From contig NZ_FNWK01000001.1 of NCBI RefSeq assembly GCF_900108295.1, positions 2,229,001-2,293,000 of the forward strand: a stretch of DNA of 64,000 bases. The letters run 5' to 3'. Position numbers and translations under genes: made by a program. Of the stretch, positions 1-17,066 are shown one piece after another. Positions within the stretch are counted from its first letter, which is position 1. The number at the start of each line of letters is the position of its first letter. This DNA is from Sphingopyxis sp. YR583 (GTDB taxonomy: Bacteria > Pseudomonadota > Alphaproteobacteria > Sphingomonadales > Sphingomonadaceae). Under the pieces are notes generated by a model, which was not told the origin of the DNA, ran no database searches, and worked only from the letters and a program-made list of their open reading frames with translations.

Positions 1-2
1 AG

Positions 3-3000
3 ATTGTCGCATCGGACGTCGATGGCGATACGCTTGGCTATACCGTCACCACCGCACCGGCGAACGGCATCGTCACGGTCAACACGGACGGCAGCTACAC
101 CTACACGCCGAACGCCAATTTCAACGGCACCGACAGCTTTGCGGTGAGTGTCAGCGACGGCAATGGCGGGACGACATTGGTGACGATCCCGGTTACCGTG
201 ACTCCGGTCAACGACGCGCCCGTCGCGTCTTCGCCGCCCGAAACGGCGGTCGAAGATACGCCGGTGAGCGGCATCATCACCTCGTCTGACTCCGATGGCG
301 ATCCGCTAACCTTCGCGGTCACAACCGCACCCGCCAATGGCAGTGTCACGGTCAATCCGGACGGCAGCTACACCTACACACCCAACGCCAATTTCAACGG
401 CAGCGACAGCTTCACTGTCACCGTCAGCGACGGCAATGGCGGGACGGCGCTGGTCACGATTCCGATCGCCGTGACGCCGGTCAACGACGCGCCAGTGGCC
501 TCGGCTCCGCCCGCGACGACGGCCGAAGACACGCCGGTCAGCGGTCAGATCGCGGCGTCGGACGCCGATGGTGATCCGCTCACCTTCACCGTCGTCACGG
601 CGCCGACCAATGGCGTGCTGATCGTGAATGCGGACGGTAGCTACACCTACACGCCCAACGCCGATTTCAACGGCAGCGACAGCTTCACGGTCAGCGTCAG
701 CGACGGTAATGGTGGCACGGTGCTGGTAGCCATGCCGGTGACGGTGGTCTCGGTCAACGACGTGCCCAGCGCCTCGGCCCCGCCCGCAGCGACGACCGAA
801 GATACGCCGGTCAGCGGCCAGATCGCGGCATTCGATGCCGACGGCGACCCGCTGACCTATGCGGTCACCACGGCGCCGGCGAATGGTAGTGTCACAGTCA
901 ATGCGAGCGGCGGCTATACCTATACGCCGAACGCCAATTTCAGCGGTAGCGACAGTTTCGTGGTCACGGTAAGCGACGGCAATGGCGGCACGACGCTGGT
1001 CACGATCCCGGTCACCGTTGCGTCCGTCAACGATGCGCCGACTGCCTCCGCACCTCCAGCCTCGACGCCCGAAGATACTCCGGTCAGCGGCCAGATCACC
1101 GCATCGGATCCCGATGGCGATCCGCTGAGCTATGCTGTCACGATTGCGCCGGCCCACGGCACGGTCGTCGTCGGCGCCGACGGCAGCTATACCTATACCC
1201 CCGACGCCAATTTCGATGGTGCCGACAGCTTCACGGTCACCGTCAGCGATGGCAATGGCGGCACGGTGCTGGTGACGATCCCGGTCACCGTCACCCCCGT
1301 CAACGATGCGCCCGTCGCCTCGGCCCTGCCGCCCACCACGGCGCAGAATACGCCGGTCAATGGTCAGATCATCGCATCGGATGCCGACGGCGATCCGCTG
1401 ACCTATACCGTCACCACCGCGCCCGCCAACGGCACGATCACGATCAACCCGAACGGCAGCTATACCTATACGCCCAAGACCGGATTTGTCGGCAGCGACA
1501 GCTTCACGGTCACGGTCAGCGACGGCAATGGCGGTACCACCACGGTAGCGGTTCCGGTCACCATCGTGCTGGTCAACAATGCACCGGCCGGAAGCGCACC
1601 GCCCGTGACGACCGCCGAAGACACGCCGGTGAACGGCAAGATCACCGCCGCCGATCCCAATGGCGATCCGCTCGGATATGCCATCACGACCGCGCCCGCG
1701 AACGGCACGGCCGTTGTCAATCCGGACGGCAGCTATACCTATACCCCCAACGCCAATTTCAGCGGCAATGACAGCTTCATCGTCACGGTCAGCGACGGCA
1801 ACGGCGGCACCCTGCAGGTGGCGGTTGCGATCACGGTATCGCCGGTAAACGATGCCCCCACGGCGTCGTCACCCCCAGCATCGACCAGCGAAGACACGCC
1901 CGTTTCGGGCCAGATTGCGGCATCCGATGTCGAGGGCGACCCGCTGAGTTACACCGTTAGCACCGCGCCCACCAACGGCAGCGTGACGATCAACGCGAAC
2001 GGGACCTATACATACACACCGAACGCCAATTTCAGCGGCAGCGACAGCTTCACCGTGACGGTCAGCGACGGCAATGGCGGCACGGTGCTGGTGACGATCC
2101 CGGTGACCATCACGCCGGTAAATGATGCGCCGACAGCATCGGCGCCGCCGGCATCGGTGTCCGAAGACACGCCGTTCAGCGGCCAGATCACCGCGTCGGA
2201 CCCCGATGGCGATCCACTGACCTATGCCGTGTCGATCCCGCCGACCCATGGGGTCCTGACGCTCAACCCCGACGGCAGCTACACCTATGCGCCCGACGCC
2301 AATTTTAACGGGAGCGACAGCTTCACCGTGACGGTCAGCGACGGAAATGGCGGCACCGTGCTGGTGACCGTCCCGATCACGGTTGCATCGGTCAACGACG
2401 TGCCGACGGCCTCTGCGCCGCCCGCGACGACCGCCGAAGATACACCGGTGAGCGGCCAGATCACCGCGTCGGATGGCGACGGCGATCCGCTCACCTATAC
2501 CGTGAGCACAGCGCCCGCCAACGGCAGCGTCACGATCAATGCGAACGGCAGCTATACCTACACGCCGAACGCCAATTTCAACGGCAGCGACAGCTTTACC
2601 GTGACAGTCAGCGACGGCAATGGCGGCACAGTGCTGGTGACTGTCCCCGTCACCGTGACCCCTGTCAACGACGCGCCGACCGCTTCGGCTCCGCCCGCGA
2701 ATGTGTTCGAAGGAACACCCTTTACCGGCCAGGTCGTCGGATCCGATGTTGATGGCGATACGCTGACTTATATCGTGGCCTTCCCGCCGACACAGGGCGT
2801 CGTGACCGTCAATCCCGATGGTAGCTATGTCTACACGCCGAAGCCCGGCTTTTTGGGAAGCGACAGCTTTTCGGTGCGGGTCAGCGACGGGCGCGGGGGA
2901 TCGGTCCTCATCGTCGTACCGGTGACCGTGGGCCCGGCGAATACCGCCCCGACCGACGGGGATGAGAGCGTGACCGTGCCGCAGGACACGCCGGTTACCG

Positions 3001-3995
3001 TGCCGGTGCTGGACAATGCCGCCGATGCCGACGGCGATCCGTTGACGGTCATCGCCGCCAGCGCCTCGGTGGGCAGCGTTACGATCAACGCCGATGGTAC
3101 GATCACATTCGTGCCCCCGCCCGGCTTCGCCGGGACGGCGGTCATCACCTACACCGTGTCCGACGGACGCGGCGGCGAAGTGGAGTCGCAGATCGTCGTG
3201 ACCGTGGTCAATGCGGGCGTCGATGTGAACGCGCTGCTCGGCAGCGGCGTGGGTAACGATCTGGAGCGGGTCGAGGTCGTCCGTCCGTCCGACGAAGCCG
3301 AATTCCGCGCGCGGCCCATCATCCTTGATGCGGTCAACGGCGTGCGGTCGCTCAACGGGACGCCCCTTCTCGACACAAGGGCTCCGGTGCTCGCCGCGGT
3401 GAACGGCATCGATGCGCTGAACGGCACCCGGTCGCTGACCGATACGGCCCACCCGATCAACAGCGTGGTGCGCTACCTCGATCGCTTCACGATCATGAAG
3501 TCCGATATCGACCGGATGTTCGAAAACCGTTTCGATGCGACCGACATCCAGCGTCCCGAAGGCTTCTCTGTCCGGACGCTGACCACAGACGATCATCAGA
3601 TGGTGCTGGAATCGATCGTCCGCAGCCATGTGATCTATCTCGAGCTGCGTGACGAGGCGGGAGGCGGCACACCGCCGATCACCGAATATCAGCTACGCAC
3701 CCGCGACGGAAAACCGCTTCCCGACTGGATCAGCTTCGACGCGCGCGGGCTGGCGATCATCGAGCGTCCTGCCGACGCCGACGAATTGCGACTGGTGGCA
3801 ATCGGCATTCGTGCCGACGGACATCGCATTGAAATACCGGTGCTCATCCAGGGCGCAACGGGGGAAATCCAGCTCGATGCCCCGGTCGCCAAGCGCGAGA
3901 TCGGCGCTGCCGCTCCGCTGGGGGATATCATGGCGAAAGCCAGCACTTCCAGTTTGTCAGAAACCGAAAAACTCTTGTCGGCCTTTGGGGGGTAG
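3..3995 (+). CDS. giant cadherin/Ig-like tandem-repeat surface protein, C-terminal part
   Basis: The frame is open from the first bases, so the 5' end lies outside the window; a start at 144 would be internal. About 1,330 residues are visible. Up to base 2936 they are tandem 91-residue cadherin-like/VCBS-type units with recurring EDTPVSG, DADGDPLTY, DGSYTYTPNANF and SDSFTVTVSDGNGG motifs. A diverged unit follows (about 2937-3215), then a non-repetitive C-terminal region of about 260 residues. No RTX nonapeptides (GGxGxDxxx) occur at the C-terminus, so a classical type I secretion signal is not evident. Family knowledge suggests a secreted or surface adhesin. The TolC/HlyD/M50 genes begin 60 bp downstream in the same direction, so this is the likely export substrate (inference). 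Function is not proven; the repeat architecture is certain. Confidence 0.9.
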   Translation: MVASDVDGDTLGYTVTTAPANGIVTVNTDGSYTYTPNANFNGTDSFAVSVSDGNGGTTLVTIPVTVTPVNDAPVASSPPETAVEDTPVSGIITSSDSDGDPLTFAVTTAPANGSVTVNPDGSYTYTPNANFNGSDSFTVTVSDGNGGTALVTIPIAVTPVNDAPVASAPPATTAEDTPVSGQIAASDADGDPLTFTVVTAPTNGVLIVNADGSYTYTPNADFNGSDSFTVSVSDGNGGTVLVAMPVTVVSVNDVPSASAPPAATTEDTPVSGQIAAFDADGDPLTYAVTTAPANGSVTVNASGGYTYTPNANFSGSDSFVVTVSDGNGGTTLVTIPVTVASVNDAPTASAPPASTPEDTPVSGQITASDPDGDPLSYAVTIAPAHGTVVVGADGSYTYTPDANFDGADSFTVTVSDGNGGTVLVTIPVTVTPVNDAPVASALPPTTAQNTPVNGQIIASDADGDPLTYTVTTAPANGTITINPNGSYTYTPKTGFVGSDSFTVTVSDGNGGTTTVAVPVTIVLVNNAPAGSAPPVTTAEDTPVNGKITAADPNGDPLGYAITTAPANGTAVVNPDGSYTYTPNANFSGNDSFIVTVSDGNGGTLQVAVAITVSPVNDAPTASSPPASTSEDTPVSGQIAASDVEGDPLSYTVSTAPTNGSVTINANGTYTYTPNANFSGSDSFTVTVSDGNGGTVLVTIPVTITPVNDAPTASAPPASVSEDTPFSGQITASDPDGDPLTYAVSIPPTHGVLTLNPDGSYTYAPDANFNGSDSFTVTVSDGNGGTVLVTVPITVASVNDVPTASAPPATTAEDTPVSGQITASDGDGDPLTYTVSTAPANGSVTINANGSYTYTPNANFNGSDSFTVTVSDGNGGTVLVTVPVTVTPVNDAPTASAPPANVFEGTPFTGQVVGSDVDGDTLTYIVAFPPTQGVVTVNPDGSYVYTPKPGFLGSDSFSVRVSDGRGGSVLIVVPVTVGPANTAPTDGDESVTVPQDTPVTVPVLDNAADADGDPLTVIAASASVGSVTINADGTITFVPPPGFAGTAVITYTVSDGRGGEVESQIVVTVVNAGVDVNALLGSGVGNDLERVEVVRPSDEAEFRARPIILDAVNGVRSLNGTPLLDTRAPVLAAVNGIDALNGTRSLTDTAHPINSVVRYLDRFTIMKSDIDRMFENRFDATDIQRPEGFSVRTLTTDDHQMVLESIVRSHVIYLELRDEAGGGTPPITEYQLRTRDGKPLPDWISFDARGLAIIERPADADELRLVAIGIRADGHRIEIPVLIQGATGEIQLDAPVAKREIGAAAPLGDIMAKASTSSLSETEKLLSAFGG
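207..2936 (+). repeat. ten tandem 273-bp coding repeats
   Basis: The V-N-D/N junction codons recur at 207, 480, 753, 1026, 1299, 1572, 1845, 2118, 2391 and 2664, exactly 273 bp apart with no indel. Most of an earlier unit occupies 1-206. Units differ by scattered substitutions but keep strict length, which is compatible with recombination-driven expansion and correction. Confidence 0.93.
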
Positions 3996-4055
3996 GATTG
4001 GCATCGGCTATTTTCGGAAGTTTCGTCTTCGTTCGTCTTTCAACGGGGTTTAACG

Positions 4056-5549
4056 ATGAAGAATGTCTTGTTCATTGCCAGCGTGTCGATGGCGGCACTG
4101 CTCACGGGGTGCACCGTCACCCCGAAACCGCTGACGGCCAGCGAGATCGCGACCACCGCAGATCGCAACATCCAGGCCGTCGACGCCAACCAGGAACCGG
4201 TTTCGGGTCCGATCGACCTGTATGAAGCGATGGCCCGCGCACTCAAATACAACCTCGATTACAAGGTCGAGATGGCGCAGGAGGCGCTGAAGGGTCGCGA
4301 GCTCGATTCCGCGCGCTTCGACATGCTGCCGCAGCTCGTCGCGAGTTCGGGCTACGCCGGCCGCAGCAATTATTCGGGCGCCAGTTCGCTGTCGCTGCTG
4401 TCGGGCCGCCAGTCGCTGGAACCGTCGACCTCGTCCGAAAAGAATGTTTTCACCGCCGACCTAGGGCTGAGCTGGGACGTGCTCGACTTTGGCCTTTCCT
4501 ATGTTCGCGCACAGCAAAAGGCAGACGAGGTTCTCATCTCGATGGAGGCGCGGCGCAAGGTCGCGAACCGGATCATCGAGGATGTCCGCACCTCTTATTG
4601 GCGCGCGGTCAGCGCCGAACGGTTGCTGACTAAGCTCGGCGAGTTGGAAACGTCGGTGACGACCACGCTGGGCAATTCGGAGCGGCTGGCCGAGCGGCGG
4701 CTGTCGGCGCCTTTGACCGCGCTGACCTATCAGCGCGAGCTGGTCGATATCCAGATCCAGATCCGCCAGCTGCAACGTGAACTGGTGATCGCAAAGGCGC
4801 AGCTGGCAGCGCTGATGAACCTGAAACCGGGAACGCCATTCACGCTGGTCCTGCCCGACCGTGCGGAAAAGCTGCCGGACATCAAGCTCAGCGGCGAGGA
4901 CATGATGATGACCGCGCTGCGCAATCGCTCCGAACTGCGCGAGGTCAGCTATCGCCAGCGCATCACGGCGAAGGAGCTGGACGCGGTGCTGCTCCGCGCG
5001 CTTCCGAATTTCAAGGCGGTGCTGGGGGTCAATTATGACTCGAACGATTTCCTTTATAACAACGACTGGTTGAACGTCGGCGCGCGCGCGAGCTGGAACG
5101 TGCTGAACCTGTTCAAGGTGCCGGCGCAAAAAAAGGCCGTGCAGGCACAGCAGGACCTGTTGCAACAGCGCGAAATGGCGCTGACGATGGCAGTGATCAC
5201 CCAAGTCAATGTGTCGCGCGCACGCTTTGGCCATCTGTCCGAAGAGCTGGGGTCCGCCGACCATCAATATCGGGTGCAGGAAAAGATCATGTACCAGATC
5301 CGATCTGGCTTCAAAGCGGGCGCGATCAGCCAGCAGACGCTGCTGCGCGAAGAAATGAATACCCTCGTGAGCGAGGTGAAATATGATATAGCCTATGCGG
5401 CGGCCCAGAACGCTTACGCCAATCTTTTCGGGTCGATGGGCATCGATGATTTCGGCCCCGACATCAGCGGCACGGAGGATGTCGCGGCACTTTCCTCATC
5501 ACTCAAACGACTCTGGCAGGACCGCGAAACCGCGCTCAAGCTCGACTGA
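4056..5549 (+). CDS. TolC-family outer-membrane efflux lipoprotein
   Basis: 497 residues. The N-terminus is a lipoprotein signal with lipobox LLTGC (Cys19). The rest is two long helical repeats rich in heptad-like Leu/Ala/Arg, as in outer membrane efflux proteins, which trimerise into an outer-membrane beta-barrel and periplasmic alpha-tunnel. It begins 60 bp after the giant repeat protein and is followed 13 bp later by a HlyD adaptor, so it probably supplies the outer-membrane exit duct for the same substrate. The start at 4056 puts the lipobox at the expected place. Family assignment is firm; the transported substrate is inferred from position. Confidence 0.9.
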   Translation: MKNVLFIASVSMAALLTGCTVTPKPLTASEIATTADRNIQAVDANQEPVSGPIDLYEAMARALKYNLDYKVEMAQEALKGRELDSARFDMLPQLVASSGYAGRSNYSGASSLSLLSGRQSLEPSTSSEKNVFTADLGLSWDVLDFGLSYVRAQQKADEVLISMEARRKVANRIIEDVRTSYWRAVSAERLLTKLGELETSVTTTLGNSERLAERRLSAPLTALTYQRELVDIQIQIRQLQRELVIAKAQLAALMNLKPGTPFTLVLPDRAEKLPDIKLSGEDMMMTALRNRSELREVSYRQRITAKELDAVLLRALPNFKAVLGVNYDSNDFLYNNDWLNVGARASWNVLNLFKVPAQKKAVQAQQDLLQQREMALTMAVITQVNVSRARFGHLSEELGSADHQYRVQEKIMYQIRSGFKAGAISQQTLLREEMNTLVSEVKYDIAYAAAQNAYANLFGSMGIDDFGPDISGTEDVAALSSSLKRLWQDRETALKLD

Positions 5550-5562
5550 AAGGAGTGACATC

Positions 5563-6498
5563 ATGACCGAAGATCGAGATTATCAGGCTCCCGCGACAAG
5601 CGGAAAGCGCCGGAACTATTATATCGCCGGTGCCGCCATATTGCTCGTCGGTGTATTCGCCGTGTCGCAAAGCGGCGCCTTCGACCGCAAGGTGCAATGG
5701 TCCGACGACGGCCGCGTCGCCAAGGCGCCAGCCGCGCAGGCGGCCGCTGCGCCGGCCGCGGTCGCCAAGGTGGCGGAGCCGGTCGGCGAGGTTCGCGGCA
5801 TCGTCAAGGCGAAGAACGAAGCGGTCATCGCCTCGCGTATTACCGCGCGGATCACGTCGATGCCCTATGGCGAGGGCAAATCCTTTGGCAAAGGCGCGCT
5901 GCTCGCCAGTTTCGACTGTTCGCAGACGAAAGCGCAGCTCAACGCAGCAAATGCCGCCGCCGCTGCATATCGCAAAACCTATGAAACCAACGCCGAACTC
6001 GACCAATATGAGGCGGTTGGCAAGAATGAGGTCGCGGTGTCGCAGGCCAATATGAACAAGGCGGTCGCCGAGGCCGCCGCGGTGTCGGCGCAGTTGACCG
6101 ATTGCGCGGTCTATGCGCCCTTTGCGGGCACGGTGGTCGAGGAAATCGCGCATGCCCGTGAAGTCGCCGCCAGCGGCCAGCCGCTGCTCAAGATCCAGAG
6201 CGGCGGCAATCTGGAAATCGAACTGATAGTCCCCAGCCGCTGGCTGACTTGGTTGAAGCCGGGCGCCGCGTTCCGGTTCAAGATCGACGAAACGGGTCAG
6301 GAAGCCGCCGGCGTCGTGACGCGCTTCGGTGCGTCGGTCGATGCGGTCAGCAAGACGATAAGGGTCACCGCCGATATCACCGAACAATCAGGCCTGGTGC
6401 TGCCGGGCATGAGCGGGTCGGCGTTGTTCCCTCAGGCGGAAAACGCGGCGGCCACTGCTCCACTAAAAGCCCCGGTGGCCGATGCAAAATCATCCTGA
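5563..6498 (+). CDS. HlyD/RND-type periplasmic adaptor protein
   Basis: 311 residues, with ATG 5563 placed 7 bases after a clear AAAGGAG ribosome site. A single N-terminal membrane anchor (about residues 17-36) is followed by an Ala-rich linker, a biotinyl-lipoyl-like half motif, a short helical hairpin, the second lipoyl half (VYAPFAGTVVEE) and a beta-barrel domain. This is the layout of membrane fusion proteins that bridge an inner-membrane pump to TolC. The hairpin is short, as in RND-like rather than classical T1SS adaptors. It overlaps the next gene by 17 bp, which implies translational coupling. No pump of the RND or ABC class is nearby, so its inner-membrane partner is probably the GAF-HlyD or M50-HlyD protein downstream (inference). 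Confidence 0.88.
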   Translation: MTEDRDYQAPATSGKRRNYYIAGAAILLVGVFAVSQSGAFDRKVQWSDDGRVAKAPAAQAAAAPAAVAKVAEPVGEVRGIVKAKNEAVIASRITARITSMPYGEGKSFGKGALLASFDCSQTKAQLNAANAAAAAYRKTYETNAELDQYEAVGKNEVAVSQANMNKAVAEAAAVSAQLTDCAVYAPFAGTVVEEIAHAREVAASGQPLLKIQSGGNLEIELIVPSRWLTWLKPGAAFRFKIDETGQEAAGVVTRFGASVDAVSKTIRVTADITEQSGLVLPGMSGSALFPQAENAAATAPLKAPVADAKSS

Positions 6499-7852
6499 AT
6501 TTCAGGCTCCGCCGCAAATTCATCGGGCGATCCCGCCCGATCAGGGCAGCCTTGCGGCGTTGTTGCAGTTTGAGGGCGAACTGCGCCGTTGGCCGACGGT
6601 GCCCGAACTCGTGTATCACATCGCCAATGAAACGCGGCGGATCATCGCTTATGACCAGATGTTCGTCCTGCGCCACGCCCGGATCGGCGAGGGATTTCAG
6701 GTTATCGCGGCGTCGAGCCTGGCGACGATCGATCGCAACGCGCCGCTGATCCAGGCGGTCGAGAAGACGATCGCAGCGCTGGCGGCCGACGCAACGATCG
6801 ACCAGCCGCGTGCCTTCGCTTCCAATATATTGCATCAGGATGCGGCGCTCGCCGACTATCCCTTTGGTGCATGGTATTGGCAGCCCCTGCATGATGCCAA
6901 TGGCGCGGCCTTTGCTGGGCTCATCGTCGCGCGTGCGACGCCGATGCGCGAAGGGGAGGCAATCCGGCTCGATCGGCTCGGCGAAACCGCGGGTCATGCC
7001 TGGCGCGCGCTGGCAGGCGGAGTTCCCGTGCGCCGCGTCCGCAAATTCGGCCCACGCGAACGCAAGGGGCTCGTCGTGTTGCTGACCGGGATCGCTCTGT
7101 TTCCGGTGCAGATGACGGCGCTGGCGCCGGTCGAGGTCGTGTCGGCACGTCCTTTCGTTGTCGCCGCGCCGTTTTCGGGGGTGATCAAGAGCATCGACGT
7201 TGCGCCCAATGCGGCGGTCAAGGCCGGGCAGCCCGTGCTGACGCTCGACGACACCAAGGTGCGCAACGAGCTGGAGCAGGCGGCCGAAAAGCTGCAGGTC
7301 GCGCGCGCACGGGTTGAGCGGTCGACCAGCGCCGCCTTCGAACCCGACGACGAAACCCGCGACATAACCATCATGCGCGCCGAATATGACGTGGCAGAGG
7401 CCGATTACGCCTATGCACGCGACATGCTGTCGCGCTCGCATATCGTCGCGCCGCGCGCGGGCGTTGCGCTATATAGCGACCGCCGCGATTGGGAGGGGCG
7501 CGCCGTCAACGTCGGCGACCCGATCCTCCAGATTGTGAACCCTGAGGATATCGAACTGCGCATCGATTTGCCGACCAAAGAACAGATGGAACTCGCGCCC
7601 GGCAACCAAGTCAAGGCATGGCTCGATGCCCAGCCCTTGTGGTCGATCGACGCGCGACTGGAGAATGTCAGCTATCAGTCGCGCCAGACGGCGAGCGGCG
7701 TGCTGGCCTTTACCGTGACTGCCAAGCCGATCGGTGCCAAGCCGCGGATTGGGTCGCGTGGGACGGCCAAGGTCTATGGCCGCTGGGCGCCGCTCAGCTA
7801 TGTCCTGTTAAGGCGGCCGATCTCCAGTCTGCGTCAATATCTGGGCCTATGA
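6482..7852 (+). CDS. GAF domain-HlyD adaptor fusion, membrane anchored
   Basis: 456 residues. Residues about 20-175 resemble a GAF-type sensor domain (PELVYHIANETRRII near the start, GAWYWQPLHD and GLIVARA later). A single transmembrane helix lies at about 196-213, followed by a periplasmic HlyD-like region with lipoyl halves (VVAAPFSGVIKSIDV and SHIVAPRAGVALYS), a coiled-coil hairpin and a beta-barrel. The topology would place GAF in the cytoplasm and the adaptor in the periplasm. It overlaps the upstream HlyD gene by 17 bp and the M50 gene by 4 bp (ATGA). A ligand-sensing domain fused to an export adaptor is unusual and suggests that assembly or transport responds to a small molecule or redox signal. 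The ligand is unknown. Confidence 0.85.
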   Translation: MQNHPEFQAPPQIHRAIPPDQGSLAALLQFEGELRRWPTVPELVYHIANETRRIIAYDQMFVLRHARIGEGFQVIAASSLATIDRNAPLIQAVEKTIAALAADATIDQPRAFASNILHQDAALADYPFGAWYWQPLHDANGAAFAGLIVARATPMREGEAIRLDRLGETAGHAWRALAGGVPVRRVRKFGPRERKGLVVLLTGIALFPVQMTALAPVEVVSARPFVVAAPFSGVIKSIDVAPNAAVKAGQPVLTLDDTKVRNELEQAAEKLQVARARVERSTSAAFEPDDETRDITIMRAEYDVAEADYAYARDMLSRSHIVAPRAGVALYSDRRDWEGRAVNVGDPILQIVNPEDIELRIDLPTKEQMELAPGNQVKAWLDAQPLWSIDARLENVSYQSRQTASGVLAFTVTAKPIGAKPRIGSRGTAKVYGRWAPLSYVLLRRPISSLRQYLGL

Positions 7853-9993
7853 CTGCGGTCGCCGCCGTCGTTCCTCCCTCAGAGGTGTCGATCCCGCCGC
7901 TGCGGCAGGAATTACGGATCGAACCCGGCGCACCGCTGGTCAACGGCGCGCCCAGCTGGACGTTGTTTGACCCGATCAAGCACGCCTTTTTCCAACTCGG
8001 GCGGATCGAGTTCCGGATATTCTCGGCGTGGGCGAACGGTGCGCTCGACGACATTCGCGACCGGCTGGCGGACGACGGGCTGGATGCCGAGGAAGCGGGT
8101 GAAGCGGTCGGCCGCGTCGTCGAATTTTCGCTGGCGAACAATCTGACCGTGCTGCCAATGCGTGACACGGTCGCTAGCTTTAACAGCGCGCGCAATGCCC
8201 AGCGCAAGGCGTGGTGGAAGTGGATGATGGACAATTATCTGTTCTTCCGCCTCCCGCTCGTCCGCCCCGCCGCCTTCCTCGAACGCACATTGCCGCGCGT
8301 CGCGCCCATCTGGTCGCCGCTGATACTGTGGAGCTTTGCCATTCTGGCGGCCGCCGGACTGATCCTAGTGTCACGGCAATGGGACGCTTTCATGGCGTCG
8401 TTCCTCTTTTTCTTCAGCTGGCAGGGGCTGATCGCCTATGGCATCGGCCTGTCGGCGGTGAAGGTCATTCATGAACTTGGCCACGCCTATACCGCGACAC
8501 GTTTCGGATGCCGCGTGCCGACGATGGGCGTCAGTTTTCTCGTCATGATGCCAGTGCTCTACACGGATACTACCGCCGCCTGGCGGCTGACATCGCGGCG
8601 GCAGCGGTTGATGATCGATTGCGCAGGCGTCGCGGCGGAACTGATGGTCGCCAGCGTTGCGACGATGCTGTGGGTAATGTTGCCGGACGGCAGCCTGCGC
8701 AGCATCGCGTTCATTACCGCGACGAGCAGTTGGGTGATGAGCCTTGGCATCAACCTCAACCCTTTCATGCGCTTCGACGGCTATTATATCCTGTCCGACA
8801 TGCTGGGCGTCCCCAATCTCCAGCCCCGCGCGTTTGCGCTCGGGCGCTGGCGGATGCGCGAATTGCTGTTCGGGCTGGGCGAACCGGTGCCGGAGGAAAT
8901 GCCCGACACGCTCCGCCGGACGCTCATCGTCTATGCCTGGGCAACATGGCTGTACCGGCTGGTGCTGTTCATCGGCATCGCGTTGCTCGTCTATCACATT
9001 TTCTTCAAACTGCTGGGGATCATATTGTTCGTCGTCGAAATGGGGGTGTTTGTGATGCGTCCTGTGATGGCCGAGCTGAAACAATGGAGCGAACGCCGCG
9101 ATGCGATCCTGGCGTCGCGACGCGGACGGATCATCATTGTTGGAACGGCGATCCTGCTTTTACTCACATTGTTGCCGCTCGACCGGCATGTGACCGCGCC
9201 GGCGGTGCTGTCGCCGATCGGTGCCGCGCCGGTGGTGGCGGGCGATCCGGCGCGGGTCGAGCGCGTGCTCGTGCGGAACGGCGACGGGGTCAAAGCCGGC
9301 ACGGTGCTGGTCGAACTCAGCGCCCCCGACCTGATCAGCGCTGCAGCGCAAAGCCGCGTCCGCATCGCGCAGTTGCAGGCACAGCTCGATCGCGGCGGCG
9401 CCGATGAAAAGGACCTGTCCGACCGCGCGGTGATCGAACGCCAGCTGGCGACAGAAACCAATGCGCTGCGCGGGCTGGAACGCCGCCAGACGCGGCTGGT
9501 CCTGCGCGCGCCCTTCGCGGGCGAGGTGGCCGATCTGGAAGCCGATATCCATCCGGGGCGCTGGTTGGGCGGGGCGGAGACGATCGCGCGGATCGTCACA
9601 CCGGACAGCTATGACGTGCAGGCCTTTATCGCCGAGGACGATGTCGGCCGCGTCGCGGACGGCGCGCTCGCGCGTTTCGTTCCGAACGACCCGCTGATGG
9701 CCTCGCGCCCCGCCAAACTCCTCGAGCGGTCGGCCAGCGCGGTGCAGTGGATGGACCAGCCGATCCTGGCGTCCACGCAGGGCGGACCGATTGCGGTCGA
9801 CGAGGACCCGTCCAAGGCGCTGAAACCGCACGAAGCGCTGTACCGCATCCGCCTGATCGCCGCGCGAGGCGCGGGACCGATGCAACCGATCGCGGGCGAG
9901 GTGCGGATCGAGGCCGAGGGCCAGAGCTTGGCCGGCCGGTTCTTCGGCTACATCGCGCGCATCTTGCGGTCCGAAGCGTCGCTTACGGGCTAG
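7849..9993 (+). CDS. site-2-type M50 metalloprotease fused to HlyD-like adaptor
   Basis: 714 residues from ATG 7849, which overlaps the previous stop as ATGA. An N-terminal cytosolic part (about 30-130) looks like a small helical or winged-helix domain. Several transmembrane helices follow, with zinc site HELGH at 208-212 and the third-ligand motif NPFMRFDG with Asp310, the two hallmarks of M50/S2P proteases. After a last membrane helix (about residues 425-440) comes a periplasmic HlyD-like lipoyl/barrel region. Both catalytic motifs are intact, so activity is plausible. As the last gene of the adhesin-TolC-HlyD block it probably forms the inner-membrane core, either cleaving the substrate or a regulator or acting as a pore-like scaffold (inference). 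I know of no proof for this architecture. Confidence 0.87.
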   Translation: MTAVAAVVPPSEVSIPPLRQELRIEPGAPLVNGAPSWTLFDPIKHAFFQLGRIEFRIFSAWANGALDDIRDRLADDGLDAEEAGEAVGRVVEFSLANNLTVLPMRDTVASFNSARNAQRKAWWKWMMDNYLFFRLPLVRPAAFLERTLPRVAPIWSPLILWSFAILAAAGLILVSRQWDAFMASFLFFFSWQGLIAYGIGLSAVKVIHELGHAYTATRFGCRVPTMGVSFLVMMPVLYTDTTAAWRLTSRRQRLMIDCAGVAAELMVASVATMLWVMLPDGSLRSIAFITATSSWVMSLGINLNPFMRFDGYYILSDMLGVPNLQPRAFALGRWRMRELLFGLGEPVPEEMPDTLRRTLIVYAWATWLYRLVLFIGIALLVYHIFFKLLGIILFVVEMGVFVMRPVMAELKQWSERRDAILASRRGRIIIVGTAILLLLTLLPLDRHVTAPAVLSPIGAAPVVAGDPARVERVLVRNGDGVKAGTVLVELSAPDLISAAAQSRVRIAQLQAQLDRGGADEKDLSDRAVIERQLATETNALRGLERRQTRLVLRAPFAGEVADLEADIHPGRWLGGAETIARIVTPDSYDVQAFIAEDDVGRVADGALARFVPNDPLMASRPAKLLERSASAVQWMDQPILASTQGGPIAVDEDPSKALKPHEALYRIRLIAARGAGPMQPIAGEVRIEAEGQSLAGRFFGYIARILRSEASLTG

Positions 9994-10020
9994 GCCCAGG
10001 ACTCCCGAGCCTAGCTTTTC
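9989..10020 (+). terminator. intrinsic terminator of the secretion operon
   Basis: A perfect 7-bp stem, GCTAGGC/GCCTAGC (9989-9995 and 10009-10015), overlaps the TAG stop and is followed by TTTT. It closes the TolC/HlyD/M50 block. Confidence 0.7.
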
Positions 10021-10209
10021 CTCACATGCTCCCGGAGGCGTCAGGCTGTTGGCGGATACCAGTGCACTCCCCCAAAGACCGTATTGTACGCGGTGCTGAA
10101 AACGTCGGCTTTCGCAAATGCAAATCCAAGAGCCGACGGTCTGAAATCGGCCAATCGGCTTGACCCACGCGTTTCCCTTTTTGGCCATTTTGGCCGCAGG
10201 AGAACGATC

Positions 10210-10839
10210 ATGGGTAGGTCAGAATTCGACTATTTGCCTCCACGACCGGCGTGGAATGCCGGTCGAAAGGTTGGTGCAAAGCGGCCGTTAAAACCACGGC
10301 AGATATGGGCAATTCGCTTTCACTTGGATCGAGAGCATCGGCTTCGAGACAGGGCGCTTTTCGATCTTGCGATCGACAGCAAACTGAGAGGCTGCGATCT
10401 GGTGAAGATAAAGATCGGCGACCTCGTCGCCGGCGGTGAGTTGAGAACGCGAGCGATGGTGATCCAGCAGAAGACCAATCGACCCGTTCAGTTCGAAATC
10501 ATGTCGGATGCTCGCGGGAGTCTCCTCGCTTGGCTCGAACGTCGCGGCGGATCGATAGAGGACTACGCGTTCCCGAGCCGCATCGATCACTCAGCGCATA
10601 TGAGCACGCGACAATATGCGCGTCTCGTCGACGAATGGGTCACCGCGGTCGGACTCCGAAGTGAAGACTACGGGACGCATTCGTTGCGCAGAACAAAGGC
10701 GTCGATCATTTACAAGGCGACCGGGAATTTGCGTGCAGTACAGATTCTGCTCGGTCATACAAAGATTGAAAATACGGTGCGATACCTTGGCGTCGATGTT
10801 GAAGATGCGTTGACCTTGGCGGAAGGCATCGAAGTCTAA
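10210..10839 (+). CDS. short tyrosine recombinase/integrase
   Basis: 209 residues. ATG 10210 follows CAGGAGA by about 6 bases. It comprises essentially only the catalytic domain of phage-type integrases, with all expected residues: Arg60 (LRGCD), Lys88 (QQKTNRP), His157 and Arg160 (HSLRR), His183 (LLGHT) and nucleophile Tyr192. The usual N-terminal SAM-like core-binding domain is missing. Such stand-alone catalytic integrases recur in sphingomonad and rhizobial chromosomes, from general knowledge. No att sites, tRNA or cargo genes are visible around it, so I do not call a mobile element. It ends 19 bp before a large hairpin shared with the converging LysR gene. Confidence 0.9.
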   Translation: MGRSEFDYLPPRPAWNAGRKVGAKRPLKPRQIWAIRFHLDREHRLRDRALFDLAIDSKLRGCDLVKIKIGDLVAGGELRTRAMVIQQKTNRPVQFEIMSDARGSLLAWLERRGGSIEDYAFPSRIDHSAHMSTRQYARLVDEWVTAVGLRSEDYGTHSLRRTKASIIYKATGNLRAVQILLGHTKIENTVRYLGVDVEDALTLAEGIEV

Positions 10840-14456: not shown

Positions 14457-16865
14457 TCAGTCGCTGATGTCTCCGATCAGCGAAAAGGGCGCCCAGGCGC
14501 TCGGGTGCGACCAGCTCCTAAGATAGGGGTCGTCGCGTGTGTCATTGCGAATTTCGCGCTCTACCTGCTGCAGGGCTTCGGCGCGCGACAGTTTCGAATC
14601 CGCGCGTAAGATCTCGAACAGGCGGACGGTGAGGACGGCCGCGACATCGTCGCGGACCGGCCAGTGCGATGCGAGCAGGCTTTCCGCGCCCGCGAAGAAG
14701 AAGGCGCGTGCGAGGCCGGAAAGGCCGGGCGCCCCGGCACGGCCGTCGCCGGCTGCTGTATTGCAGGCGGACAGGATGACCCACCCCGCGCCGATGCGGA
14801 GTGCCGCCACTTCGCTCGCGGTCAGCAAGCCATCGTCGGCGGGGCTGGCAGCTGCGGGCGGCGTAAAGACGAGACCCGGTTCGCCGAGGTCGGCGATCTC
14901 GCCCGCGACAAGTCCGTGCGTCGCGAGGAACAATATCGACGATGAAGAAAGGTCGGCTGCCTTCAGCTTCGCTTCCGTCGCTTCGCCTGCCAGGAAAAGC
15001 TTCGTATTCCCGGCGCCGACGAGCCCCTCCATCGCTTTCAACTCTTTCTCCGTCCCGGGAAGCCGGGCAAGCCGGCGGAGGGCCGAGGGATCTGCAAGTT
15101 CGGTCTCGCCGCTCGCCGCACGCCAGATATTGCTGGCAAGCGGCGTGCCGCCGCCGCGTGCCGTCCGGTTCCGGCCTTCGACGCCGCGCGTCGCGGCATT
15201 GCCCTCGAGCAAGGGGTCTCCGAAGCCTATCATGCTGCTTCCTGTGGGGATGTTTGCGCCCGCAACCGCGCGGAGAAGCTGAAGCGACTGGAGCGACGGC
15301 AGCTGGACGATCGCCGCCTTGTCGGCGAACCAGGATGTCGCCCGTAACGCTGCAGGGTCGCCGTCGGTGCCTGTCGGCTTTTCGGTCACGAGGATGCCGA
15401 GAGGCAGCGAGGAGATCGATCCTGCCGCAGAGGTGAAAAGGTGCCGCTTGCCCGCCAGCGCTCCACTGACGGGCGCAACCAGCTCCTCGTAGAGACGGTA
15501 CGCCGTGCCGCGATCGAACGGAAAGTCGCCTTCGCCTTCGGCGGACCAGCGCTCGTCTTCTTCTGGCGTCACATCGATGTTCGCGCCGACATCCCAGAGC
15601 AGACGGCGTACATGCCTCGTGAGTTCGGCTTCGGTCATGGCAGATCGATGCCACTCGACGCCACCGCGCGTCACGACAAGACTGTGCGTACCGCGCGGCG
15701 TGGGCACGATCATCAAAAATGCCTCGTCGGCGGCCAATAGTGTTTTGGCAGCGGGCTCGTCCAAGAGCGCCGGCTTCACCAGTTCGAAATAGCCTGGCGT
15801 TGCGGCGGCCAGCCGGGAATCGATCGCCTCGAGCGCGGCGTTGGCCGTGCCGATTTCCTGCCACAGCGCCCGATCCGCGTCGCTGCCGGCCTTCGTGCTT
15901 TCGCTCCTCGCGAAAAGCGCGCCGAGTTCCGCCGCCTTTGCATCTCGCTCGGCGGCAAGTCCGGCGGCTCCCGACGCAGCGGCGGCGCGCGTCGCTGCCG
16001 AACGCGCCAACGCGCGCGAGGTTCGGCCCGCCATGATGTCCTGGAGAATGAGGAGGGCGTCGGACTTGGCCGACGGGCTCTTCGGGCCCGCTTCCCAAAG
16101 CACGTCGGCGTGGAGACGCGACCACTCTGCAAACATTTCCTCACCGGTGTGGGTGGACGGGTCCTTCTCTGCAAGTTCGACCAATTGCTCGTCGAGCACA
16201 CCCGTGCCGAAGCCGCGCCGATAGGCAAGCGAAGATGCTGCGGCAATACGCGACGAGGCGAGGGCGGAGGCCGCGTCGCCATTATCGAGGGCGAGCCTTG
16301 CATGCGCAGCCGCGGCCATGCCGAGCGCCTTGCCCTCGACCGTGCGGCCGCGCGGCACCGTCTGCTCGGCTACGTCGGTCAGGGTGGAACCGCCCTGCCA
16401 GGCGCCCAGTACCTCCGCCAATATCTTTGTGGCCTCTGCGCTTCGGCCATCTTCCGCGAGTGAGTGGGCGAGCGCGCGCACGGCATAGAGCGTGTCGCTC
16501 GATCGATCGCCCTGCAGCTTCCTGCGAATAGCAAGCGCGCGTGAACGGAGCGCTGCATCTTCAGTCCAGCGCTTCTCAGAATAATATTCAAAAGCCAGAA
16601 GCTGGAGGGCGTCGGCGTGCGGGACACTGTCGTCGCCATGATATTCGGCAATCAACTTGGCGCGTTCGGCGAGCAGGGCGATGCGCGCGGCTTTTTCGCT
16701 GTACGGAATTGCGCTCTGGCGTCGCTTGAGGTCTGTCATGCGCTTGTCGAAATCAGCTTTCCGCGCGTCGTCCTGCACTTGAGGCGACTGCGCGCGGGTC
16801 GCAGGTACGGGACTGATCGCACAGGCGATCGCCGCAAGATGTCCGCACAATCTCTTCATCGCCAT
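14457..16865 (-). CDS. exported TPR-CHAT (caspase-like) protein
   Basis: 802 residues from ATG 16865 (16859 is also possible); both give a signal peptide cleaved near ATRAQ. Residues about 35-300 are helical TPR-like repeats (DALQLLAFEYYSEKRW, AVRALAHSLAEDGRSAEA), then comes a coiled linker. A CHAT domain fills about 380-800, with the catalytic pair His650 (LFLATHGL) and Cys701 (LSACNTAAG) and the SLPLGILVTEKP segment. CHAT proteins are caspase/separase-like Cys peptidases. Some (Craspase-type, bacterial gasdermin activators) act in defence, but those are cytosolic. The signal peptide and lack of partner genes point instead to a periplasmic or outer-surface protease. Confidence 0.88.
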   Translation of the reverse strand: MAMKRLCGHLAAIACAISPVPATRAQSPQVQDDARKADFDKRMTDLKRRQSAIPYSEKAARIALLAERAKLIAEYHGDDSVPHADALQLLAFEYYSEKRWTEDAALRSRALAIRRKLQGDRSSDTLYAVRALAHSLAEDGRSAEATKILAEVLGAWQGGSTLTDVAEQTVPRGRTVEGKALGMAAAAHARLALDNGDAASALASSRIAAASSLAYRRGFGTGVLDEQLVELAEKDPSTHTGEEMFAEWSRLHADVLWEAGPKSPSAKSDALLILQDIMAGRTSRALARSAATRAAAASGAAGLAAERDAKAAELGALFARSESTKAGSDADRALWQEIGTANAALEAIDSRLAAATPGYFELVKPALLDEPAAKTLLAADEAFLMIVPTPRGTHSLVVTRGGVEWHRSAMTEAELTRHVRRLLWDVGANIDVTPEEDERWSAEGEGDFPFDRGTAYRLYEELVAPVSGALAGKRHLFTSAAGSISSLPLGILVTEKPTGTDGDPAALRATSWFADKAAIVQLPSLQSLQLLRAVAGANIPTGSSMIGFGDPLLEGNAATRGVEGRNRTARGGGTPLASNIWRAASGETELADPSALRRLARLPGTEKELKAMEGLVGAGNTKLFLAGEATEAKLKAADLSSSSILFLATHGLVAGEIADLGEPGLVFTPPAAASPADDGLLTASEVAALRIGAGWVILSACNTAAGDGRAGAPGLSGLARAFFFAGAESLLASHWPVRDDVAAVLTVRLFEILRADSKLSRAEALQQVEREIRNDTRDDPYLRSWSHPSAWAPFSLIGDISD

Positions 16866-17066
16866 CCGCCCCCCGCCGGTCTGCAATCAGATAGCCGCTG
16901 ATCGGGGCGTGAGCAATGCGGCGCCAGCCGACAACGCCTGCTCGGTTCGACCCCGGCGGGGTTTTTCGCGTTCGCGAAGTTAAAGGACGTCCGCTATTGG
17001 GTACCGAAGCCCCAAAAGGGGCCAGTCCGTTGCCGGCCAACACTGACAATGCTCTGTAGGCCTCGG

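Follow-up and report, generated by a model that had tools for sequence, protein, structure and literature searches.

The DNA considered here is a stretch of 64,000 nucleotides from Sphingopyxis sp. YR583 (the window; G000:C1:2229001-2293000), taken from a genome of 4.31 Mb with a completeness of 100. The system in question is a cassette of five genes at the start of this window, encoding a giant repeat protein (the substrate), a TolC-type outer-membrane channel and three adaptor-type proteins, one of which combines an M50 protease with a predicted recognition element of the kind that reads leaders of ribosomally synthesized and post-translationally modified peptides (RiPPs). The features of the cassette are as follows.

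1..3995, plus strand: 3' part of the substrate gene, with 12 immunoglobulin (Ig)/cadherin repeats and a C-terminal region (Pfam and profile matches).
3915..3992, plus strand: C-terminal tail of the substrate, PLGDIMAKASTSSLSETEKLLSAFGG, a candidate second export signal (alignment).
4056..5549, plus strand: TolC-type outer-membrane factor (OMF) with a lipoprotein-like signal, LTGC (PF02321, E 1.7e-33, and sequence).
5563..6498, plus strand: periplasmic adaptor 1, RND_mfp/HlyD type, with a single N-terminal membrane helix (TIGR01730).
6482..7852, plus strand: GAF-HlyD adaptor, or adaptor 2 (profile and structure matches).
7849..9993, plus strand: RRE-M50-HlyD protein, hereafter the M50 protein (profile match and predicted model).
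7888..8154, plus strand: RiPP-recognition-element (RRE)-like domain of the M50 protein, residues 14-102.
8470..8484, plus strand: HELGH zinc site of the M50 protein (H208, E209 and H212; invariant in 36/36).
8752..8787, plus strand: third-ligand motif NLNPFMRFDGYY of the M50 protein (D310; N302 and P305-Y313 invariant in 36/36).
9181..9918, plus strand: HlyD/MacA-type adaptor part of the M50 protein, residues 445-690.
9987..10017, plus strand: terminator-like hairpin with a T run past the last stop codon (z -1.84, modest).

Along the five genes the first two junctions are gaps (60 and 13 bp) and the last two are overlaps (17 and 4 bp), and the run that an earlier note on this DNA had described (repeat protein, TolC-lipoprotein, HlyD, GAF-HlyD and M50-HlyD, with at most 60 bp after the repeat protein and overlaps of 4-17 bp) is real. 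The terminator placed by that note at its end is present as a hairpin and T run, the statistical support being modest. Not described in that note are the predicted RRE fold of the M50 protein, the LEPR-type leader, DUF4347 with its one cysteine, the association of leader and M50 across genomes, and the copy on an E. coli plasmid. Both an HlyD-type adaptor (PF13437/PF16576) and a TolC-type channel (PF02321) were matched. Adaptor 1 scored 97.3 bits against TIGR01730 (cut-off 94.9), and in adaptor 2 a GAF domain (residues 18-183, bases about 6533-7030) is followed by a membrane helix (residues 197-215) and then by an HlyD/MacA-like adaptor.

The M50 protein matched PF02163 above the cut-off, with the HExxH motif and D310 invariant in all 36 members, and with HExxH and NPxxDG-type zinc ligands in its membrane domain the features of a site-2-type (M50) intramembrane protease are present. 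Its closest NCBIfam model was the daptide intramembrane protease (152 bits, under the cut-off of 300), and the M50 profile matched the MJ0392 structure 3b4r (E 2.7e-4). Adaptor proteins took up the Foldseek lists, with an adaptor fold resembling MacA, MexA and EmrA, so that the assignment of the membrane domain is one made by sequence. Residues 14-102 had, in the predicted model, a PqqD-like fold by secondary structure (three strands and three helices), and in a structure comparison this region matched leader-bound chains of lasso B1. The M50 protein is thereby predicted to carry an RRE-like fold, which precedes the first M50 helix and whose expected place is the cytoplasm, the compartment in which leaders of the RiPP kind are read.

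A candidate for such a leader is found at the N-terminus of the substrate, which lies upstream of the window and carries LEPRMMFDGA. When the upstream regions of 21 genomes, selected for having the M50 gene and without regard to the motif, were analyzed, LE[PAQ]RxxFD was found within the first 100 residues of all 13 linked substrates having a readable N-terminus. No readable linked N-terminus was available for G163 (broken frame) or for G489, G555, G231, G526 and G261 (contig ends), and no substrate was recognised beside the cassette in G437 or in G361, the latter being a draft in which the substrate gene and the M50 gene, itself close to the end of its contig, are on separate contigs. The motif was also present in 12 further substrates, 10 of them chosen by similarity to the N-terminus of the window substrate and two, from locus L074, not so chosen; in the substrate encoded on an E. 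coli plasmid it reads LESRQLFDGA. The pattern LExRxx[FLY]D[AGS] occurred in 15 of 986 open reading frames (ORFs) of at least 100 residues, with 12 being these substrates and three lying inside M50-HlyD proteins. The NF012209 (LEPR-XLL) model gave 20.7 bits with the first 100 residues of the window substrate and 17.5 with a longer piece (cut-off 17).

We also compared occurrence of the two partners among 389 sampled alphaproteobacterial genomes, where the M50 protein was found in 28 (E 1e-60), a profile of leader plus DUF4347 in 36, and both in 23 (Fisher 2.6e-23, uncorrected for kinship). Several of these 36 genomes match only over the DUF4347 part; loci were available for 30 of them, the listed matches in the six without a locus begin past the motif, and G397, G526, G537, G461 and G543 were counted neither way for the motif. 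By inspection the motif was seen in 20 genomes, 19 of which have the M50 protein. Genomes G344, G355, G424 and G513, which gave no M50 match, have DUF4347 proteins that lack the motif over the part displayed.

With regard to gene order, genome contigs were searched with the M50 protein, which gave 496 relatives, the best 80 of them being kept as loci. The order of OMF, adaptor 1, GAF-adaptor and M50 was found in 53 of these 80 loci, the other 27 being partial because of contig ends or because genes were fused or skipped in the ORF calls, and all five genes that the earlier note had seen as a run recur on an E. coli plasmid. Judged from the names, the 80 loci presumably span Alpha-, Beta- and Gammaproteobacteria, Nitrospira and one record named Desulfoplanes, with sphingomonads as the nearest relatives of the M50 protein of the window. 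No gene cluster beyond the five cassette genes was common to more than 10 of the 80 loci. Within the order, 7 of 147 genomes matched the M50 protein at E 1e-20, and the gene was absent from all six same-genus genomes listed, so that its presence is patchy. Plasmid records matching the M50 protein numbered 63, including 18 from Escherichia, 13 from Azospirillum and eight from Citrobacter. On the E. coli 0H23 plasmid NZ_CP081687.1 (IncFIA/IncFIB) all five genes lie between IS5- and IS1-type elements (L187:6830-26581), and p2 of Azospirillum sp. TSA2s has, by its annotation, the same gene order as the cassette. Using the E. coli GAF-HlyD and M50 DNA as a query, 24 of 5,426 complete E. coli genomes matched, 22 of them over at least 80%, with 21 of the 25 matching places on plasmids. 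Directly past the cassette in the window, at 10084-10839, an ORF resembles by eye a tyrosine recombinase/integrase, possibly tied to mobility.

The whole substrate gene (G000:C1:2212935-2232995) encodes 6,686 aa and starts upstream of the window, its product having the N-terminus MPSERMHPTGRDKRSRSKIKPQGHLLALEPRMMFDGAA followed by DUF4347 (PF14252), Big_9/He_PIG/cadherin-like repeats and a non-RTX C-terminal region. The absence of an RTX signal, as stated in the earlier note, held for the entire protein, in which a motif count gave no RTX nonapeptides, with 0-2 in 12 relatives. The substrate matched the BapA/LapF large-adhesin model NF045619 (219 bits, cut-off 180), the match falling on the repeats, and contains 22 DxDGD-type motifs. 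Its single cysteine, C223, lies within DGDILIYGC. Exactly one cysteine after the motif, at the same DUF4347 position (YGC, or WGC in G440), was found in 12 of 14 giants, these being the ones of the window and of E. coli together with 12 of the 13 linked substrates, several of them closely related; the exceptions were G158, having two extra cysteines, and G034, in which the only one sits elsewhere, and G160 was omitted from the count as its frame is broken by Ns. In all 11 aligned DUF4347 sequences S178, H179, G180 and C223 were invariant, and a His/Cys peptidase would be the natural reading of this domain as judged from its residues. When compared with the families of clan CD, one of 11 members matched Peptidase_C80, at E 0.012 only. 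The sole DUF4347 structure in the PDB, 9qpe_G, was matched by the profile (E 9e-7) but not by the single sequence of the window. An 809-residue protein encoded at 14457-16886 on the minus strand has by eye the look of a CHAT-type peptidase, with ATHG...SACNTA as what we take to be the CHAT-type motif; a kinship of DUF4347 with this protein was considered and dropped, as sequence comparison gave no match.

At the other end of the substrate, an alignment suggested a shared C-terminal stretch. In a hold-out test, which was weak, the tails differed from decoys (Mann-Whitney p 0.0016), yet individual sequences could not be separated: the window tail ranked 172 of 797, several of the 18 test tails ranked low, some OMF tails ranked high, and one high decoy was the second substrate of L074. 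These ranks make a weak case for the tail as a universal export signal. Substrate sizes across the loci read ranged from 370 to 6,686 aa. The smallest, from a Sphaerotilus cassette (L064:5173-6285), has a leader, DUF4347 and a C-terminal region with little space for repeats, and is a natural minimal test substrate. A Micavibrio cassette (L074:252-6046) encodes two substrates in tandem, each of some 965 residues and with the sequence LEKRLMLDAS; neither gave a BLAST match to the ends of the window protein. Leader-type proteins also occur in open frames of 10,025 residues (G299:C4:3521783, L161) and 9,509 residues (G202:C26:12395, L160).

Giant adhesins are believed to need an ATP-binding cassette (ABC) transporter. 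The earlier note had found neither an ABC transporter nor a resistance-nodulation-division (RND) pump encoded here and had called the cassette an ATPase-less, M50-containing export module. As far as a linked motor is concerned, BLAST with the two ABC exporters of the window genome as queries revealed no type IV ABC exporter in 1,549 kb around the 80 cassettes (eight ORFs of 195-367 aa matched the nucleotide-binding part only), and none was annotated as an ABC transporter in the E. coli plasmid stretches read. An RND transporter was not found among the five genes, nor in the nine of 15 RND-sized unlabelled neighbours that were scanned in relatives. A dedicated ABC or RND partner just outside the window, which would have refuted the earlier note, thus did not turn up within this scope. 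ATPase-less and M50-containing are thus apt descriptions with regard to a linked type IV ABC, the absence of an RND partner reaches as far as those nine neighbours, and export of the giant protein is what we propose below. Within the window genome, PF00664 (ABC_membrane) found two genes at E 0.001, one with a product above the MsbA_rel cut-off (785 bits) and the other scoring best, below all cut-offs, with MsbA/glucan-exporter models, which we take to be Atm1-like. No ABC of LssB or PrtD type was detected there (best scores of 300 bits for TIGR03375 and 222 for TIGR01842, far below the cut-offs), and the two PF00664 proteins, to which the TIGR01846 comparison was confined, reached 353 and 349 with that model (cut-off 726). 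These models, which also answer the search for an ABC elsewhere in the genome that the earlier note had proposed, found no transporter of the type I secretion system (T1SS) kind, MacB-type and other ABC families not having been searched. Among other motors considered, an accessory SecA was rejected with one SecA match in the genome, a conserved extra gene was rejected as no cluster outside the five genes occurred in more than 10 of the 80 loci, and the large Azospirillum clusters c8 and c9 were rejected since they had no Pfam match in L063 and resemble shadow ORFs.

Compared with the T1SS of giant adhesins of the LapA/BapA/SiiE type, the cassette likewise has an HlyD-type adaptor and a TolC-type channel, and its substrates are likewise repeat-rich, cysteine-poor giants without a normal signal peptide and with a possible C-terminal tail. 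It differs in that the cassette encodes no ABC and the window genome showed none of T1SS type, in its N-terminal leader, in lacking RTX, and in having three proteins of adaptor type, of which one bears a GAF fusion and another an RRE-M50 fusion. With RiPP clusters it shares an M50 membrane protease (EpeP of epipeptides, the daptide HExxH protease) and, as predicted, the leader-reading RRE fold of lasso B1/B2; for EpeP, joint cleavage and export has been proposed (PMC10885120, PMC7614699). Unlike those systems it has substrates of 370 to >6,000 residues, no modification enzyme, a fused HlyD arm and a TolC channel, and neither a short precursor peptide nor a modifying enzyme was met in the loci read. 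RND, major facilitator superfamily (MFS) and MacAB tripartite pumps have the same adaptor fold (MacA, MexA, EmrA) and TolC-type channel, whereas the cassette encodes no energised pump protein. The substrate matches the models of both the LEPR-XLL (NF012209) and the DUF4347 (PF14252) giants, with the difference that the motif is here tied to a partner gene; we know of no function for either name. On the features tested, the cassette is neither a T1SS nor a RiPP cluster, and looks like a mixture of parts of both.

We propose that the five genes form a unit complete in itself for exporting and processing a single giant surface protein, a proposition that we regard as evenly balanced. In this model the RRE of the M50 protein would bind the LExRxxFD leader at the N-terminus of the substrate in the cytoplasm and dock it at the membrane, with the GAF domain of adaptor 2 sensing a cytosolic signal that permits or gates export. 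The M50 membrane domain, fused to an HlyD arm, would occupy the usual position of the ABC or RND transporter, and together with the two other adaptors the M50-HlyD protein would join the TolC-like channel to form the path. Removal of the leader, while the chain is being moved or once it is across, would fall to the site-2-type protease, and the cysteine domain DUF4347 may cut its own chain a second time. None of the five genes encodes an energy source, and the likeliest ones would be the proton-motive force together with one-way, Ca2+-dependent folding of Ig/cadherin domains outside, a ratchet that would fit the 22 DxDGD-type motifs. The cassette would then be a variant form of tripartite export, and the chance that it makes up a separate class is substantial. 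More specifically, though more tentatively and on the doubtful side of even, it could be a distinct tripartite secretion class, in which an RRE-M50-HlyD fusion reads a RiPP-style leader and replaces the ATP-driven transporter, so that chains of thousands of residues would pass both membranes in a single step with no ATPase dedicated to the task, driven by proton-motive force and outside folding and released by cleavage.

Several observations weigh against these proposals. The RRE-like fold is derived from one predicted model, and the corresponding region gave no PqqD match in Pfam at E 1 for the 36 members and no PDB sequence match at E 10. The leader sequences of only five of 11 relatives matched NF012209 at E 1, and the association over 389 genomes, as noted, takes no account of kinship. 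G562, a draft with 8% contamination, has the motif without an M50 match, while G437 has the M50 protein and a DUF4347 protein without LExR. The latter protein belongs to an open frame of 8,907 residues (G437:C1:4846884-4847681, L169), about 3.2 Mb from the M50 gene on the same contig. No M50 protease is known to power or gate the transport of long chains. LEPR-XLL is also reported on a Vibrio RTX protein (PMC10868602), so that the motif may not be confined to this export route.

An alternative, unlikely in our view yet to be taken seriously, is that passage through the inner membrane is powered by an ABC transporter encoded elsewhere, the cassette providing adaptors, channel and leader protease only. 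HlyD and TolC proteins commonly partner ABC transporters, and a T1SS-type ABC is present in 22 of the 28 genomes with the cassette, with matches to the LssB model in 21 (E 1e-106) and to the PrtD model in 22 (E 1e-100), which also counts against our proposal. The LssB model was mildly enriched (21/28 versus 213/389 in the sample, Fisher p 0.03, uncorrected for genome size), an enrichment that genome size could explain. Six of the 28 had neither type at these thresholds (G000, G231, G261, G440, G526 and G555), although in four of them (G231, G261, G526 and G555) the cassette is cut by a contig end or has no recognised channel gene beside it. The remaining two are the window genome, complete as it is, with housekeeping MsbA/Atm1-like and MacB-type ABCs as the candidates left, and G440 (7.4 Mb), having a complete cassette with a substrate of 4,827 residues. 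The absence of a linked ABC from the 80 loci and from the annotated plasmid stretches also speaks against an ABC-driven step.

Rather improbable, though like the unlinked ABC still a live rival, is a Sec route with an unusual extended signal, in which the M50 protein and the adaptors would do no more than remove the signal and serve the step through periplasm and outer membrane. Bacteria generally have Sec, the leaders have basic N-termini and an alanine-rich stretch after the motif, and the leader region of G151 (2.13) is as hydrophobic as a signal peptide, the OMF signal having 2.11, again a point against our proposal. However, in this hydropathy scan 12 of 13 leaders were below the OMF signal (1.53 for the window and 0.5-1.71 for the other eleven), and there is an acidic residue inside the motif. 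The expected cytoplasmic location of the RRE and the single SecA of the window genome also argue against this route. Still less credible is a role of the cassette in holding the giant protein at the surface or letting it go, in the way of a regulated protease with a GAF sensor, export occurring by another route: an intact protease, the GAF domain and the conserved DUF4347 cysteine would suit regulated cleavage, but a TolC-like channel with three adaptor-type proteins makes a conduit rather than a tether, and the neighbourhood has no further conserved gene for export. The view that an efflux operon and an adhesin gene lie side by side by chance, for which the name of the adaptor-1 model ('efflux RND transporter periplasmic adaptor') and the patchy occurrence of the M50 gene could be cited, deserves practically no credence, being already refuted by conservation of the gene order across the classes named and by the leader-M50 association.

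Returning to the proposed export and processing cassette, a search of open-access PubMed Central literature gave no paper on an M50-HlyD-TolC cassette for giant proteins. With the cassette conserved in Proteobacteria and Nitrospira, present in a genome where no ABC of the kind known for giant adhesins was found, and complete on an E. coli plasmid, what powers or gates the export of giant proteins becomes testable with a handful of genes, and the cassette gives LEPR-XLL and DUF4347, two unexplained labels, a partner and a likely role. If the proposal is true, leader recognition by an RRE extends from short peptides to proteins of >6,000 residues. As a minor observation among the neighbours, one locus encodes, some 5 kb ahead of its giant gene, a 955-residue AAA protein resembling LmuB (L004:14587-17451), and two of seven other neighbours scanned there gave weak PDC-S11 or type II restriction matches.

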